Source of the DNA: Bacteroidetes bacterium 47-18 | GTDB lineage: Bacteria > Bacteroidota > Bacteroidia > Chitinophagales > Chitinophagaceae | Assembly: GCA_001897155.1 (NCBI GenBank) | Contig: MKSF01000013.1 | Coordinates: 310,001-374,000, forward strand | Direction: 5' to 3' | Length of the DNA stretch: 64,000 bases | The notes under the pieces: generated by a model | Seen by the model: the letters and a program-made list of their open reading frames with translations, nothing else | What the model was told of the DNA's origin: nothing | The model's database searches: none | Program-made: the position numbers and the translations under genes | Shown here: positions 53,589 to 58,641 of the stretch, piece after piece | Layout: the number at the start of each line of letters is the position of its first letter | How positions within the stretch are numbered: the stretch's first letter is position 1

Positions 53589-54608
53589 ATGCTGATCAAC
53601 CCATCCATTATACCAGATATCAAAGCCATCATTGCCCGGACAAAGGACAAGACAATACGTACCATTGATCATCAGCGAACACTGATGTACTGGCATATTG
53701 GCAAAAGAATTTTTGAAGAGGAACAAGATGGCAAAGACAGGGCAGATTACGGTACATATCTCATAAAATACCTTTCAGAACAATTACAGCCTGAATTTGG
53801 AAGTGGTTTTTCTTCCAGACAACTGAACTGGTATAGGCAGTTTTACCGCACTTTTCCAATTGTGTCTGCACTGCGGACACAATTGAGCTGGACACAGTAT
53901 AAGATGCTTCTAAGTGTTGATAATGAGGACAAAAGAGAATTTTATATAGCCGAGACCATAAAAAATAATTGGACTTCCCGGCAATTAGAACGACAGCTAT
54001 ACAGTAATCTGTACGAACGACTTTTATTGAGCAATGACAAAGAAAGTGTTTTGGCGGTTGCTAGAAACGAAAAGCAACCCTCTGATGCAAAAGAAATCAT
54101 TAAAGACCCAATGCTTTTAGAATTCCTAGGGTTAAAAAGAGAAGCATCTTACTATGAAAGGGATTTGGAAAATGCCATTATCACACACTTACAGGATTTT
54201 TTATTGGAGCTGGGTAATGGATTTTCATTTGTAGCCAGACAAAAAAGAATACATCTGGACGGTGATGAGTTCTTTGCGGACCTGGTTTTCTATAACCGGC
54301 TATTGCAATGCTTTGTAATTATTGAAATCAAAACCCATAAACTAACGCACCAGGATATCGGGCAGTTGCAGATGTATGTTAACTATTATGACCGCATAGA
54401 AAAGCTCCCTCACGAAAACCCCACCATCGGCATTTTGCTTTGTGCCAAAAAAAACGATACAGTAGTAAAATTCACATTACCGGAGGGACAAAAACAAATT
54501 ATCGCAAGCCAATACGAATTGTATTTACCCACAGAAAAGCAATTGCTGGAGGAAGTAAAAAAGGAGCTGGAAAGCTTTGAAGAAAAGAATGAACAACCGG
54601 GCTCTTAA
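53589..54608 (+). CDS. PDDEXK nuclease domain protein, YhcG (DUF1016) family
   Basis: The 339-residue protein has an N-terminal DUF1016 helical domain (about 10-150, with RTLMYWHIGKRIFEEEQ and LRTQLSWTQYKMLLSV). A C-terminal PD-(D/E)XK fold follows (about 185-330) with likely catalytic D231 (FFADLVFYNR) and E246-x-K248 (VIIEIKTHK). Members are predicted nucleases, often in defence or mobile contexts. The gene is visibly AT-richer than its neighbours and lies directly after interspersed element copy 3, consistent with horizontal acquisition. The motifs are intact, so it is probably active. Confidence 0.9.
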   Translation: MLINPSIIPDIKAIIARTKDKTIRTIDHQRTLMYWHIGKRIFEEEQDGKDRADYGTYLIKYLSEQLQPEFGSGFSSRQLNWYRQFYRTFPIVSALRTQLSWTQYKMLLSVDNEDKREFYIAETIKNNWTSRQLERQLYSNLYERLLLSNDKESVLAVARNEKQPSDAKEIIKDPMLLEFLGLKREASYYERDLENAIITHLQDFLLELGNGFSFVARQKRIHLDGDEFFADLVFYNRLLQCFVIIEIKTHKLTHQDIGQLQMYVNYYDRIEKLPHENPTIGILLCAKKNDTVVKFTLPEGQKQIIASQYELYLPTEKQLLEEVKKELESFEEKNEQPGS

Positions 54609-54754
54609 TATTTGCAGCACATCCAACATCAGGCGGGCTTTAGCCAGCTCCTTGATCTTACACTGTATTTGCAATCGCCTGCCTTTAAAAAAAATTTACA
54701 GACCTTCCAACCTTACAACCCAGCCGACACTCTTTATAGTTAAAATACGACCGG

Positions 54755-55270
54755 ATGATAGATTTACGGATAATAGAAGCCTGCAAAAAACAGGAAAGGC
54801 GCGCACAGCGGGTCGTATATGACTTTCTATTACCCAGGCTGTACCATACCTGCAAAAGGTATATAGATAATGACACGGATGCTGAGGATGTGCTGGCTGA
54901 AATTTTTGTCATCATATACACGAAGATACACCAGCTTGAAGCGCCGGAGGCCCTGGTAGCATGGTCCAGGAAAATAGCGGTCCGCCATTGTATGGCTTAC
55001 CTGAAAAGGCACACTCGCTTTGACGAGCTAACGGAGCAGCACCACGCGGTATCACCGGCATTACAGCCTTCGCACGAGAAAGACCTGCACCAGCTGGTAG
55101 GCTACTTACCTGCCGGCAGCAAGCTGGTCTTTAACCTGGCCGTGGTGGAAGGCTATTCCCATAAAGAAATAGCGGACCTCCTGCAGATATCCGAAGGCAC
55201 TTCCAAATCCCAATTGCACTATGCCAAGCACAAGCTGAAAACGTGGCTGGAAAAATTTTATACCGGCTAA
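54755..55270 (+). CDS. ECF-type RNA polymerase sigma factor
   Basis: The 171-residue protein has sigma region 2 (about 20-65: YDFLLPRLYHTCKRY, TDAEDVLAEIFVIIYTKIH) and region 4 (about 112-165: LPAGSKLVFNLAVVEGYSHK, EIADLLQISEGTSKSQLHYA). Region 3 is absent, as in ECF sigma factors. The plus-strand gene is followed after 24 bp by a membrane protein in the position of an anti-sigma factor. Together they should form a signal-response unit controlling unknown genes. The start MIDLRIIEACKKQERRAQ is at the usual distance from region 2. Confidence 0.93.
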   Translation: MIDLRIIEACKKQERRAQRVVYDFLLPRLYHTCKRYIDNDTDAEDVLAEIFVIIYTKIHQLEAPEALVAWSRKIAVRHCMAYLKRHTRFDELTEQHHAVSPALQPSHEKDLHQLVGYLPAGSKLVFNLAVVEGYSHKEIADLLQISEGTSKSQLHYAKHKLKTWLEKFYTG

Positions 55271-55294
55271 AGCCGGAACTATTAAAAAAGAAAG

Positions 55295-56242
55295 ATGATG
55301 GAACAGTCAGATAACATTTTTGAAAATTATAAAGAGCAGATGCAGGCGCAGGAACATAACAGCGAAACTTTACCTTTCGACAGGGAGCAGCTATGGGAGA
55401 CCATTACAGGCAGGCTGGAGAAACAACGTCCCCGGAAAACGGTCTTATTCCGTAACCTCGGCATAGCAGCCGGCATCCTGCTTATCATAAGCCTTGGCAT
55501 CCTTTACCTACAACGGACCGGCGATACATCCTTACCCACCGGAGTAGTACAGCAACCCGGCAACCCTCCACGTGCAGCAGCACCAGAACACCCTCCGCTC
55601 CCCGATCCCGTGCCTCTTACACAGGCGGACGCAGCGATATCAACCGTTGCCAGGCAAACACCGGCAGCCACCAAAGTACGGACTTCCGTATCAACACCTG
55701 GCAGTCTACCATCACGGATAGTTACCGGTTACGGCAATGCTGTAACGCAGTATGCAGACAGCAGCTCAACAGACCCTACCATTGCAGCCACATTACCCAT
55801 AACGGAAGTAATACCAGGCATTACAGACAGCATTTCACCCATCAGAACAGCATCCGCCACCCGTGTACCATCCACACTTGTACAGGCGCTGGAAAGCGGC
55901 ACTACCGGTGTAGTAGTTAACAACCCGTCCGGGCAGCCCGGCAGCGCAGCAGCGATCAGGATAAGAGGATATTCTTCGATCAGCGGCAACTCCAATCCCC
56001 TGTACGTGGTAGATGGCACTATCTATATGGGTGATATCGCTGACATTGACCCTGCTGATATTTTAAGCATGGATATTTTAAAAGATGACACAGCGACTTC
56101 CCAATACGGTTCCAGAGGCTCCAACGGCGTCATCGTGATCACCACTAAGGACGGTGCCTACACTGAAGTGCAGGAAAATGGCAACCTGTGGGATAAAATA
56201 TTTAAACGCAAAGGAAAACGGCACCGGAAGTCTGGACAATAA
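55295..56242 (+). CDS. Anti-sigma-like membrane protein fused to a SusC-type TonB plug module
   Basis: The 315-residue protein has a cytoplasmic N-terminus of about 50 residues (FDREQLWETITGRLEKQ, helical, like Bacteroidota anti-sigma heads) and one membrane helix (about 52-72). A Pro/Thr-rich extracytoplasmic linker leads to a plug module (about 195-286) with IRIRGYSSISGNSNPLYVVD, DILSMDILKD, YGSRGSNGVIVITTK and an upstream RIVTGYG, as in SusC-like receptors. No beta-barrel follows; the protein ends in a basic tail. Start 55295 is 24 bp after the sigma stop; a second ATG three bases later is equally possible. The plug may sense the surface or bind a partner (inference). Confidence 0.82.
   Translation: MMEQSDNIFENYKEQMQAQEHNSETLPFDREQLWETITGRLEKQRPRKTVLFRNLGIAAGILLIISLGILYLQRTGDTSLPTGVVQQPGNPPRAAAPEHPPLPDPVPLTQADAAISTVARQTPAATKVRTSVSTPGSLPSRIVTGYGNAVTQYADSSSTDPTIAATLPITEVIPGITDSISPIRTASATRVPSTLVQALESGTTGVVVNNPSGQPGSAAAIRIRGYSSISGNSNPLYVVDGTIYMGDIADIDPADILSMDILKDDTATSQYGSRGSNGVIVITTKDGAYTEVQENGNLWDKIFKRKGKRHRKSGQ
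55919..56149 (+). repeat. Plug-module repeat, copy in the anti-sigma-like gene
   Basis: This DNA segment encodes residues 209-285 of the anti-sigma-like protein. It is duplicated at 57723-57953 in the DUF4139 gene: 58 of 77 residues are identical by my count, with long identical DNA runs (for example AATCCCCTGTACGTGGT). It indicates recent duplication or gene conversion. Confidence 0.75.
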
Positions 56243-56358
56243 ATTAAGCCCCCTGCCATACACCTGGCATCCCTGACATTTTACAGCCTCATTCAGGCAA
56301 TAGCGCTGGCTATTGGTGGCGGAGCTATACCCCATACGATATACTTAAAAAGATTTAT

Positions 56359-56754
56359 ATGATAAAAACAATCACGTTTCTTATTGCAACCAGCATCTGC
56401 AGTACCGGCATACTGTCGGCACAATCCCCGGCAGATACCCTGAAAGTCACATCCGGCTCTCAGCAGCCGGGCCAGCCTGCGGCAGACCCTTCCGGTACCT
56501 GGATTAGGAACCGGTGCCAGGCATCTGTACGCACAACACCCCAGCCGCTCATTGTTATAGATAATTCGCCTTACCTGGGTGAGCTGTCAGCAATAGACAA
56601 AGACAATATTGCCGAAATAAAGATTCTTAAAGGCAAGGAAGCCACTACGCTTTACGGGAAAAGGGCCTTGGATGGCGTCATTATCATCACCACCAAAAGC
56701 CACCTGAAAAGCAAAAAGAAGCGGGGATCATTTATAACCAGGTTATTCAGGTAA
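56359..56754 (+). CDS. Small secreted protein with minimal TonB plug-like module
   Basis: The 131-residue protein has a signal peptide (SICSTGILSAQ, cleavage near 21), a Gln/Pro-rich linker and a C-terminal plug-like segment (about 60-113): QPLIVIDNSPYLGEL, NIAEIKILKGKEATTLYG and DGVIIITTK. This is the short form of the PLYVVDG...ITTK core of SusC plugs and also occurs in CarboxypepD/plug proteins of the phylum. A basic tail follows. It has no barrel. The gene lies 116 bp after the anti-sigma-like gene, in the same direction, and is probably part of the same functional unit. Confidence 0.75.
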   Translation: MIKTITFLIATSICSTGILSAQSPADTLKVTSGSQQPGQPAADPSGTWIRNRCQASVRTTPQPLIVIDNSPYLGELSAIDKDNIAEIKILKGKEATTLYGKRALDGVIIITTKSHLKSKKKRGSFITRLFR

Positions 56755-56801
56755 CCAGCCGTATATGCAGCTACCTGTTGAACTTTAAAATCCATTGAAT
56801 A

Positions 56802-58607
56802 ATGAAAAAGATATTTACCATTTTTACAGGCAGCGCTTTCTGCCTCACTACAGCCGTTGCCCAGGAAATCGTGCCCGTTCCCGCAAAATTAGAAGCTGTA
56901 ACAGTATATAAGCAGGGCGCGCAACTGCTGCATAAGATACAGCCACAGATACCGGCCGGCTACAGCGAGCTGGTCATAGAGCAGGTGTCCAATATGATAG
57001 ACGAGGCCAGCATCCAGCTATCCGCACCTTCGGCTGTAACCATTATGTCCGTAAGATTTGCACCCACCTATGAACATCCTTCCAAAAGCAGGGATACCAT
57101 ACTGCCGCACGATGCCATATCCGAAACGGAAAGACAGCTCACTGCTGTCAGGATCGGGAAAGAGGTGGCCGGCAATACGCTCGCTTTGCTGGATGCCAAC
57201 AGGAAGCTGGGAGGAGAGCCCAACAGCACCAATGTTGCGGAGCTTATAAAGCTTACCGATTATTATGCCGAAAAGCAGGGCGAGCTGCGCCGTAAGATCG
57301 CACAATTAAGTGAGCAGGAAAAGCAATTGCAGGAGCAACTGGGTAAATTACGGAATACTCCCGGCAAGCCTGAAGAGAAAAAAAAGACCGGGGGCTATAT
57401 CGTTGTCCAGGTAATGGCCTCCCAGGCCGTACAGCCTGTTATGGCGGTGCAATATTACGCTACAAATGCAGGCTGGAGTCCTTATTATGACCTGCGTTCG
57501 GAAAGCACCGGCAAACCGCTGAAATTCCTGTACAAAGCCAATATTGTACAATCCACCGGCATCGACTGGAAGAGAGTAAAGCTGCGGCTGTCCACTACCA
57601 ATCCTTCGCTCGGCAACAATACACCCCGGCTGTCAGCCTGGATCCTGCAATACGGCTATCCCCGCTATACCACCAGCCCGGCAGCCGACCTGCTGGAAGG
57701 CAGTGTTCCCGGCGCAGTGGTGTCCAATCCATCCGGGCAGCCGGGCAGTACTTCAGCGATCAGGATAAGAGGATTTTCTTCCATCAGCGGCAATTCCAAT
57801 CCCCTGTACGTGGTGGATGGCTCCATCTATATGGGTGATATCGCGAATATTCCTCCTTCGGATATTTTAAGCCTGGACGTTATCCAGGGTATCCAAGCCA
57901 CCTCCCAGTACGGCTCAAGAGCCTCCAACGGCGTGGTCAACATCACCACCCGGTCGAAAGGCGTAGATAAGTTCACCGCTATAGATGTAAAAGAGCTGAG
58001 CACCACCTTTGATATTGATCTTCCCTATGAAATATTGTCCAACGGCAAAGAGCACAGCGTGAGCCTGAAAGCGCTCAGCCACCCGGCACGCTACCATTAT
58101 TACGCCATACCCAAAGAAGATCCCGATGCCTTTCTCGTAGCAGAGATCACCGGCTACGGCGACCTGAACCTGCTGCCGGGAACAGCCAATATTATCTTTG
58201 AGGACCTGTATGTGGGCAAAACCCGTATCGACCCCTACCAGCCTAACGATACCCTGCTGCTCAGTATGGGAAGGGACCGGAAAGTGATCGTCAAAAGGGA
58301 TATGATAGCAGAGCTGACCGGCACCAAAACTTCCGGCAGCTATAAAAAGCAGGTCTTCACTTATGATATAACCGTAAAAAACACGAAAAAGGAAAGCATC
58401 CATATCACCCTGAAAGATCAGTATCCCATAGCTACGGACCATTCCATGAACATAGAGCTGCTGGAGCATTCCGGCGCAGAGGTCGATAAAGAAACAGGAC
58501 TGCTTACCTGGAAGCTGGCCGTCGCGCCGGGAGCCAGCCAGAAAATAAGGGTCGCTTACAGCATCCGGTATCCTAAAGACAAAATAATAGGCAACCTTCA
58601 GCCCTGA
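56802..58607 (+). CDS. DUF4139 protein with an inserted SusC-type plug module
   Basis: The 601-residue protein has a signal peptide (LTTAVAQ, cleavage near 21), an N-terminal DUF4140-like domain (about 28-110, LEAVTVYKQGAQLLHK) and a coiled-coil (about 140-185). A DUF4139 domain starts at about 200 (AVQYYATNAGWSPYYDLR) and resumes after 390 (FTAIDVKELSTTFDIDLPYE) to the C-terminal APGASQKIRVAYSIRYPK. A plug module (about 293-385: RIRGFSSISGNSNPLYVVDG, YGSRASNGVVNITTR) is inserted inside the DUF4139 domain. DUF4139 proteins without such insertion are common but uncharacterised. The insertion is almost identical to the module of the anti-sigma-like protein. Confidence 0.85.
   Translation: MKKIFTIFTGSAFCLTTAVAQEIVPVPAKLEAVTVYKQGAQLLHKIQPQIPAGYSELVIEQVSNMIDEASIQLSAPSAVTIMSVRFAPTYEHPSKSRDTILPHDAISETERQLTAVRIGKEVAGNTLALLDANRKLGGEPNSTNVAELIKLTDYYAEKQGELRRKIAQLSEQEKQLQEQLGKLRNTPGKPEEKKKTGGYIVVQVMASQAVQPVMAVQYYATNAGWSPYYDLRSESTGKPLKFLYKANIVQSTGIDWKRVKLRLSTTNPSLGNNTPRLSAWILQYGYPRYTTSPAADLLEGSVPGAVVSNPSGQPGSTSAIRIRGFSSISGNSNPLYVVDGSIYMGDIANIPPSDILSLDVIQGIQATSQYGSRASNGVVNITTRSKGVDKFTAIDVKELSTTFDIDLPYEILSNGKEHSVSLKALSHPARYHYYAIPKEDPDAFLVAEITGYGDLNLLPGTANIIFEDLYVGKTRIDPYQPNDTLLLSMGRDRKVIVKRDMIAELTGTKTSGSYKKQVFTYDITVKNTKKESIHITLKDQYPIATDHSMNIELLEHSGAEVDKETGLLTWKLAVAPGASQKIRVAYSIRYPKDKIIGNLQP
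57723..57953 (+). repeat. Plug-module repeat, copy in the DUF4139 gene
   Basis: This segment encodes residues 308-384 of the DUF4139 protein and is the partner of 55919-56149. It breaks the DUF4139 domain in two, so it looks like an insertion that kept the reading frame. Confidence 0.75.
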
Positions 58608-58641
58608 TAACCTTTAGCAGCATTACCGGTCGTTCCAACCT

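Follow-up and report, generated by a model that had tools for sequence, protein, structure and literature searches.

A candidate ECF sigma/anti-sigma system of Bacteroidota in which a barrel-less SusC-type plug may serve as shared recognition module

Why would an anti-sigma factor and its neighbours carry the plug of a SusC-type receptor and no barrel? The question is raised by a 64,000-nucleotide stretch of the genome of Bacteroidetes bacterium 47-18 (family Chitinophagaceae; contig MKSF01000013.1, positions 310,001 to 374,000; this whole stretch is referred to as the window). Here a gene for an extracytoplasmic function (ECF) sigma factor is followed by genes for an anti-sigma-like protein, a small secreted protein and a DUF4139 protein, each with such a plug. 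With slightly more confidence than doubt, we read this locus as an envelope-signalling system built on an ECF sigma/anti-sigma pair, with the SusC-type plug as a probable common module of recognition. Three elements of this reading have computational support: the sigma/plug-anti-sigma pair is conserved, a promoter motif is shared, and in three genera the plugs agree with a resident SusC at the amino acid (aa) level. In the following, L numbers denote loci and G numbers genomes; G000 is the window's genome, L152 belongs to G239 and L156 to G279. Statements on published systems refer to the accessible parts of the papers cited by PMC number.

Three plug proteins without a barrel follow the sigma gene

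The locus has the following features:

54705–54733, plus strand: predicted promoter TTCCAACC-N18-TCT, 50 bp 5' of the sigma start codon (position weight matrix score 13.0; exact match in the genome scan)
54755–55270, plus strand: ECF sigma factor, 171 aa (Pfam Sigma70_r2, r4_2)
55295–56242, plus strand: anti-sigma-like single-pass protein with SusC-type plug, 315 aa (Plug 47.6 bits); its N-terminal homologues adjoin an orthologous sigma
55445–55510, plus strand: predicted transmembrane helix of the anti-sigma protein, about residues 51–72 (hydrophobic stretch; helix 48–75 in a low-confidence AlphaFold2 (AF2) model)
55868–56131, plus strand: plug module of the anti-sigma protein (Pfam Plug; 82% aa identity to the plug of its own SusC, silent sites saturated)
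55888–56145, plus strand: 258-nt plug DNA repeat, copy 1, within the anti-sigma gene
56359–56754, plus strand: small secreted plug protein with basic C-terminal tail, 131 aa (Plug 27.9 bits); similar genes beside sigma in L147, L150, L152 and L156
56419–56679, plus strand: plug module of the small protein (Pfam Plug in the genome scan)
56802–58607, plus strand: DUF4139/MuiA-family protein with nested plug, 601 aa (DUF4139 183.8 bits, DUF4140 58.6, Plug 46.3; TIGR02231)
57681–57935, plus strand: plug module within the DUF4139 domain (Pfam Plug in the genome scan)
57692–57949, plus strand: 258-nt plug DNA repeat, copy 2 (dS, the synonymous divergence, 0.64 to the anti-sigma copy)

This order of four genes on the plus strand had been proposed in a first-pass annotation and agrees with the open reading frames. 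The first protein matches Sigma70_r2 and r4_2 above the Pfam cut-offs and TIGR02937 above its own, as ECF sigma factors do. The 315-aa protein matched no anti-sigma Pfam model, Plug being its sole family above cut-off, and we call it anti-sigma-like from its operon position, topology and homologues. Its AF2 model (mean predicted local distance difference test, pLDDT, of 53; 75–83 in the plug core blocks) has helices at residues 6–43 and 48–75 and a pLDDT below 50 across most of residues 84–231; it is too weak for domain contacts.

The plug and the missing barrel, both claimed in that annotation for all three proteins, were confirmed: each exceeds the curated Pfam Plug cut-off of 23.9 bits, and no barrel model matched any of them at E ≤ 1. 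The anti-sigma protein ends only 36 residues past its Pfam Plug match. TIGR04056 and TIGR04057 match the plugs of all three; TIGR04057 exceeds its cut-off solely in the anti-sigma protein, and TIGR04056 covers the plug part alone, under its 368-bit cut-off, and not a 22-strand barrel. The SusC type of the plug also holds: among solved structures, the anti-sigma plug comes closest to RagA, a SusC-type receptor (E 1.6e-16). Genome-wide there are 23 Plug matches, and the remaining 20 lie in frames of 617–1073 aa (their barrels were not checked frame by frame). A barrel lost by frameshift, or one that correction of a sequencing error would restore, as the annotation had allowed, can be rejected because no barrel model matches the three proteins and the gap between the anti-sigma and the small gene is 116 bp.

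The 601-aa protein scores 247.6 bits with TIGR02231 (cut-off 112.6) and thus belongs to the MuiA/DUF4139 family; its plug (residues 294–378) is nested inside the DUF4139 domain (215–592). At the DNA level its plug and that of the anti-sigma protein are a 258-nt repeat, 78% identical. The plug of the small protein is divergent, with 40–42% identity to the other two.

The sigma factor and its plug-bearing anti-sigma protein are conserved as a pair

Searching with the first 182 residues of the anti-sigma protein gave matches at E ≤ 0.05 in 64 of 294 family genomes, its own included, many of them weak. There were 82 rows of N-terminal matches with that of the window, and 16 loci with wide flanks were taken from the better or longer ones. 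At 13 of them (L144–L156, 13 genomes) a sigma gene lies directly 5' of a plug-bearing anti-sigma gene, and these 13 sigmas are 40–49% identical to the window's. Two other sigmas (28–30%), at L157 and L158, go with plug-less anti-sigma proteins, and L159 has no sigma.

Most of these loci hold a further component. A YfbK-type VWA part is present in 11 of the 13 (fused in one frame in ten, split at L149), and the relatives found by the anti-sigma N-terminus include proteins that combine this N-terminus with a plug and a YfbK-type VWA. At L174, in a named metagenome-assembled genome (MAG), the Pfam order is CarboxypepD_reg, Plug, vWF_A, VWA, YfbK_C. The AF2 model of this fusion (mean pLDDT 59.9) is too weak for domain contacts; a Foldseek search with it gave no receptor plug among the 50 matches listed, which we take to be VWA-containing proteins. 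The VWA is absent from the anti-sigma proteins of G239 and G279, where a small secreted plug gene follows the anti-sigma gene as in the window; in G031 and G191 a small plug gene lies just 5' of the sigma gene. The conservation of gene order on which the first-pass annotation had made its reading depend stands for the sigma, plug-anti-sigma and small secreted plug genes (L152, L156) and fails for the DUF4139 gene, which is not beside a sigma gene in 20 loci.

Named genomes were then scanned with an alignment of the sigmas, and the best 80 of 589 loci were kept. We divided them post hoc into 36 and 44 where the pattern changes (E 3e-37 / 3e-34) and called their plugs by an in-house profile. The 36 closest of these best 80 (L160–L195) come from Flavobacterium, Chryseobacterium, Epilithonimonas, Kaistella and one Chitinophagaceae MAG. 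A plug-bearing gene lies 3' of the sigma gene in 35 of them, the exception being L187; at L179 the sigma frame was uncalled in the first reading, and the plug genes come from a separate plug reading. None of the 44 more distant loci has a plug gene after the sigma gene, four of them (L213, L214, L222, L228) being without a sigma frame or a downstream gene. Among the 36, a YfbK-type VWA-plug protein occurs at 19 (12 adjacent, 7 fused), and the gene after the anti-sigma gene is itself plug-bearing at 18. The YfbK-type VWA-plug protein, a common partner in relatives, had been overlooked in the first-pass annotation.

The window genome, 98.79% complete, has no PF12450 match at E ≤ 0.001 and no vWF_A match, so its anti-sigma protein is the short form; here the DUF4139-plug and small plug proteins take the place of YfbK.

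Several plug proteins of relatives deserve separate mention. An alpha-2-macroglobulin (A2M)-plug gene lies near the sigma gene at L169, and A2M proteins in frames of about 2000 aa (L247, L248, L279) have CarboxypepD_reg and plug just before the A2M domain. At L178 (8508–10850) and L187 (8507–10654) an anti-sigma-like N-terminus is joined to a VWA and a type IX secretion C-terminal sorting domain, which is odd given the membrane helix; the L178 protein is a Chryseobacterium anti-sigma-plug protein. In the 514-aa frame of L269 (G124:C1:281477) the plug core is formed by the final residues.

A predicted promoter motif links the sigma genes to plug-bearing envelope genes

Upstream regions of the sigma genes of relatives have the motif TTCCAACC-N18-TCY in common, and its core was found 5' of 46 of 48 sigma genes when one mismatch was allowed (exact in 29). 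The weight matrix recovers the exact-core sigma upstream regions from which it was built; the tests on DUF4139, A2M and SusC genes are independent of this. Among 4000 random windows, some overlapping sigma promoters, 2.05% score at least 9 and 0.63% at least 18.

All six plug or plug-remnant DUF4139 genes of system-bearing genomes are preceded by the motif, with scores of 28.7 (G031), 28.1 (G191), 23.2 (G173), 20.8 (G100) and 10.4 (G224) and an exact match 74 bp 5' of the start codon in G124. Four of these genes have a plug, that of G100 a partial plug and that of G224 a short remnant only. The motif was found at none of 19 other DUF4139 genes (maximum score 7.8), namely 16 from other genomes, the plug-less paralogue of the window genome and the plug-less genes of G239 and G279. 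In the window genome the DUF4139-plug gene is already part of the sigma operon. In six relatives, these genes and the sigma gene share a predicted promoter, which supports the first-pass reading of a common signalling system. A2M genes have the motif in three of seven cases (G173 18.4, G279 9.0, G239 exact; the first A2M frame of G239 shows CarboxypepD_reg below cut-off, A2M and a partial plug match only), SusC operons in two of ten (G279 27.0, G239 22.4).

Scanning nine whole genomes gave 27 exact matches to the motif and 6 to its reversed form, the control. Of the 27 matches, 17 lie at sigma, plug, CarboxypepD_reg, A2M or SusC-operon genes: nine sigma genes, four DUF4139-plug genes, one SusC operon, one A2M gene, L364 (CarboxypepD_reg and a plug seen by the in-house profile alone, 1.8e-10, no Pfam Plug at E ≤ 0.01) and L374 (CarboxypepD_reg only). 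Two more precede rho, and eight are others. G031, G191 and G124 have just two exact matches each, at the sigma and the DUF4139-plug gene.

The motif also turned up elsewhere. The top-scoring loose match in the window genome, ahead of the window sigma (13.0), lies 100 bp 5' of a primary-type sigma gene with regions 1.2 to 4 (L356, G000:C37:147796–147824, score 14.3); such a gene is not among the exact matches in the nine relatives. At L363 (Rho domains confirmed) and L377 the motif stands 38 bp 5' of rho, in G001 and G100. An identical 30-base match occurs four times within 1.6 kb at G000:C6:123941–125475, apparently a repeat. A second TTCCAACC core lies on the plus strand of the window at 58633–58640, just past the DUF4139 stop codon; it lacks the -10 part and is followed by a GC-rich stretch. 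At the other end of the locus, the 5' neighbour (53589–54608) is a DUF1016/YhcG-type PDDEXK nuclease. A scan for sigma-70-type promoters was uninformative (9 sites, 5.0 expected). The ECF motif described for Flavobacterium has a CGT -10 box, unlike the motif found here (PMC9723704).

The plugs resemble that of one resident SusC

Between the window's anti-sigma plug and that of the sole SusC-type receptor among its matches (G000:C37, 1073-aa frame), identity is 82%; the best SusC of the other nine genomes compared reaches 58%. The comparison covered ten genomes of three genera, which had been found by anti-sigma plug resemblance, so that positives are favoured. SusCs were the best matches of two queries (one to three per genome), and one per genome was used for ranking. 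The SusC of the same genome was the best of ten for the anti-sigma plug in eight of ten genomes, the exceptions being G031, where it comes second to that of the sister species G191, and G239, whose plug is reduced and where it comes fifth. It was also the best for five of six DUF4139 plugs and for all five A2M plugs. Among 20000 label permutations, which ignore relatedness, the observed sum was reached 0 times for anti-sigma, 0 for DUF4139, 2 for A2M and 1 for small plugs.

The agreement is one of amino acids. Mean aa identity of the anti-sigma plugs is 0.74 to the own SusC and 0.56 across genomes, and identity at four-fold silent sites is 0.32 and 0.31, respectively, with 0.25 expected from composition. 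Since the two silent values are alike, nothing points to recent copying of DNA, and recent gene conversion was rejected as the source of the resemblance. Pairs of anti-sigma and own SusC plugs show low dN (non-synonymous divergence) against saturated dS: in eight genomes they are 69–92% identical at a dS from 1.9 to saturated, and the reduced plugs of G239 and G279 retain 51 and 54%. The single yardstick we have is the pair of SusC plugs from G279 and G239 (dS 1.54, 68% identical). Only the window's anti-sigma/DUF4139 plug pair, with its dS of 0.64, looks like later copying.

We considered whether the plugs might instead bind one another, anti-sigma with VWA, DUF4139, A2M and small proteins, their likeness to SusC being due to repeated old gene conversion. 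The plug-bearing gene that follows the anti-sigma gene at 18 of the 36 closest loci fits such a homotypic network, and the closeness of the two window plugs in DNA indicates that copying occurs. We nevertheless hold this explanation to be unlikely: it sits poorly with the missing excess of silent identity in own pairs, and the anti-sigma plug is nearer to its own SusC than to a further plug protein in nine of nine genomes compared (narrowly in G239 and G279).

Neighbours shared chainwise over the ten loci, which we assessed by reading, suggest that the tracked SusC is the same gene throughout. For instance, YqeY-like, CvpA-like and glutamine-amidotransferase-like genes lie beyond SusD at L112, L304, L305 and L307. 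Full-length identity of this SusC between genera is 35–54%. In each of three relatives examined, a type IX-secreted protein is encoded 5' of it, and two of these proteins match trypsin below threshold; in the window genome an M23 peptidase with a type IX-type tail lies beyond SusD.

From the amino acid agreement we infer that the barrel-less plugs have the same binding partner as that of SusC; the likeliest candidates are the barrel of that SusC and a protein that handles its plug. The barrel is a plausible partner because the SusC plug is absent from it in the closed state of a SusCD importer (PMC7782687). Another candidate is TonB. The barrel-less proteins may have kept the TonB-box-like segment beside the plug, and the anti-sigma protein would then read TonB engagement or compete for TonB. 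Segments at the TonB box position, which we took from the description of SusC in PMC7782687, do covary between SusC and barrel-less proteins of one genome (EVVIAQPYGPP in SusC and anti-sigma of G173). A general partner such as TonB predicts that the segment is widely shared, yet the other SusC-type plugs that we read in these genomes, from part of the receptors, lack it, and the DUF4139 and small proteins of the window show no evident TonB box on reading the sequence. We therefore think TonB an improbable answer.

Observations that weigh against a shared SusC partner

A number of results argue against the plug as a recognition module shared with SusC, beginning with the TonB-box-like segments, which could indicate TonB rather than the barrel as partner. 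Small plugs follow the pattern poorly: two of five have the own SusC as best (own 0.50, cross 0.47), and that of the window ranks its own SusC 10 of 10. Only two of four small plug genes reach a promoter score of at least 9. The motif is absent at four of seven A2M genes (G224 -0.3, G100 0.9, G191 and G031 1.5) and at eight of ten SusC operons, including that of the window genome (-6.2), in which the loose motif has 16 matches and its reversed control 11. In Flavobacterium only the core of the anti-sigma plug is left, and the L164 protein matches no Pfam family at E ≤ 0.001. Tracking is missing in G080, G254, G209 and G146, four genomes from two further genera: only one of their four anti-sigma plugs has an own receptor plug as best, marginally, at 48–56% (6–7 receptor plugs per genome), and those of G080, G254 and G209 are 73–81% identical to one another. 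Finally, the ten genomes are related, of which the permutation test takes no account, and the agreement may stem from old gene conversion whose silent sites have since become saturated. Tracking as a universal rule was rejected on account of the four genomes.

The first-pass annotation had suggested that the plug may be an interaction module of a surface-signalling system whose proteins recognize each other or compete for one receptor partner. This is supported in part: a sigma/anti-sigma system that carries the plug as a module is conserved, and a shared partner would account for the likeness of the anti-sigma and DUF4139 plugs to that of one resident SusC. The small protein of the window is no closer to its own SusC than to others.

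Could the plugs be without special function, promiscuous domains that spread and drift among envelope proteins of Bacteroidota? The DUF4139 proteins invite this question. Many of 30 aligned DUF4139 loci from the bacterial family have a plug or its remnants at one variable loop, and the inserts run from full plugs to remnants with no link to a sigma gene, a frequent event that the first-pass annotation had overlooked. A conserved DUF4139-sigma linkage was rejected, as it is absent from 20 DUF4139 loci of 20 other genomes with wider flanks (some cut by contig ends); L104 has another sigma-like gene at a distance of about 4 kb. Drift would also agree with the missing tracking in four genomes. Against it stand the low dN of own pairs at saturated dS, the conserved sigma/anti-sigma adjacency and the shared promoter motif, and we regard it as quite improbable.

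Comparison with known systems

We found no description of this layout in the literature, mostly open-access, in agreement with the first-pass annotation. Titles retrieved for DUF4139 were unrelated, A2M with TonB and plug gave nothing, and plug with anti-sigma gave a marine single-cell genome paper only. The accessible parts of PMC12611786, PMC12045153 and PMC12204202 do not describe it.

The Dma/Das systems, described as restricted to Bacteroidota, pair an ECF sigma factor with a single-pass anti-sigma protein that has a cytosolic head, a long linker and an outer-membrane-related C-terminal module (PMC13088901), a layout that the window pair may share. Dma ends in a beta-barrel of its own, the window protein in a barrel-less SusC plug, and in the window system other proteins of the predicted regulon carry plugs too. 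FecI/FecR/FecA shares the ECF sigma factor, the single-pass regulator and the link to a TonB-dependent receptor, FecR-type regulators binding the STN domain (PMC9249621); the window regulator has no FecR domain and carries the receptor's plug rather than binding a signalling domain. The own SusC matches CarboxypepD_reg and Plug only, with no STN at E ≤ 0.01.

SusC/RagA receptors (TIGR04056; RagA, BT1763) have the plug sequence in common with the window proteins, and in relatives also the preceding CarboxypepD_reg and the TonB-box-like segment; they differ in having the barrel. The fourth window gene is a member of the MuiA/DUF4139 family (TIGR02231) distinguished by its nested plug and its place in a sigma operon. 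YfbK-type VWA proteins (PF12450/PF12034) are plug-bearing partners, fused or adjacent, in relatives and were not found in the window genome. Compared with the sigma/plug-anti-sigma/YfbK loci of relatives, the window thus has the orthologous sigma, the plug-anti-sigma and the TTCCAACC promoter but not the YfbK partner, which is likewise missing as a VWA part from the anti-sigma proteins of L152 and L156.

A possible mechanism and its implications

In the signalling system that we propose, the anti-sigma protein would have its head in the cytosol and cross the membrane with one helix, and a long linker would lead to the C-terminal plug. The sigma factor would transcribe its own operon, which in relatives may itself contain the YfbK-VWA gene, and in relatives also plug-bearing envelope genes, namely DUF4139/MuiA, some A2M and some small secreted proteins, and sometimes the SusCD operon. 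Empty, open or misassembled SusC barrels would change the binding state of the anti-sigma plug, and this change would release the sigma factor. Plug-tagged effectors would then be made and directed to those pores. In its boldest form, which we regard as rather doubtful, the plug would be a transferable address: the anti-sigma, VWA, A2M, DUF4139 and small proteins would each bear a copy of the plug of one SusC, be kept in step with it and dock on its empty or open barrel, and the sigma factor would thereby count unplugged pores and send plug-tagged guards to them.

If this is true, the barrel-less plug proteins of Bacteroidota would have a role, and anti-sigma factors a third route to the outer membrane besides FecR-STN and the Dma barrels. 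A single sigma factor and a single SusCD pair would connect envelope families of which little is understood, namely DUF4139/MuiA, YfbK-VWA, bacterial A2M and small plug proteins. It would also become testable where the SusC plug goes on leaving the barrel, and what notices.

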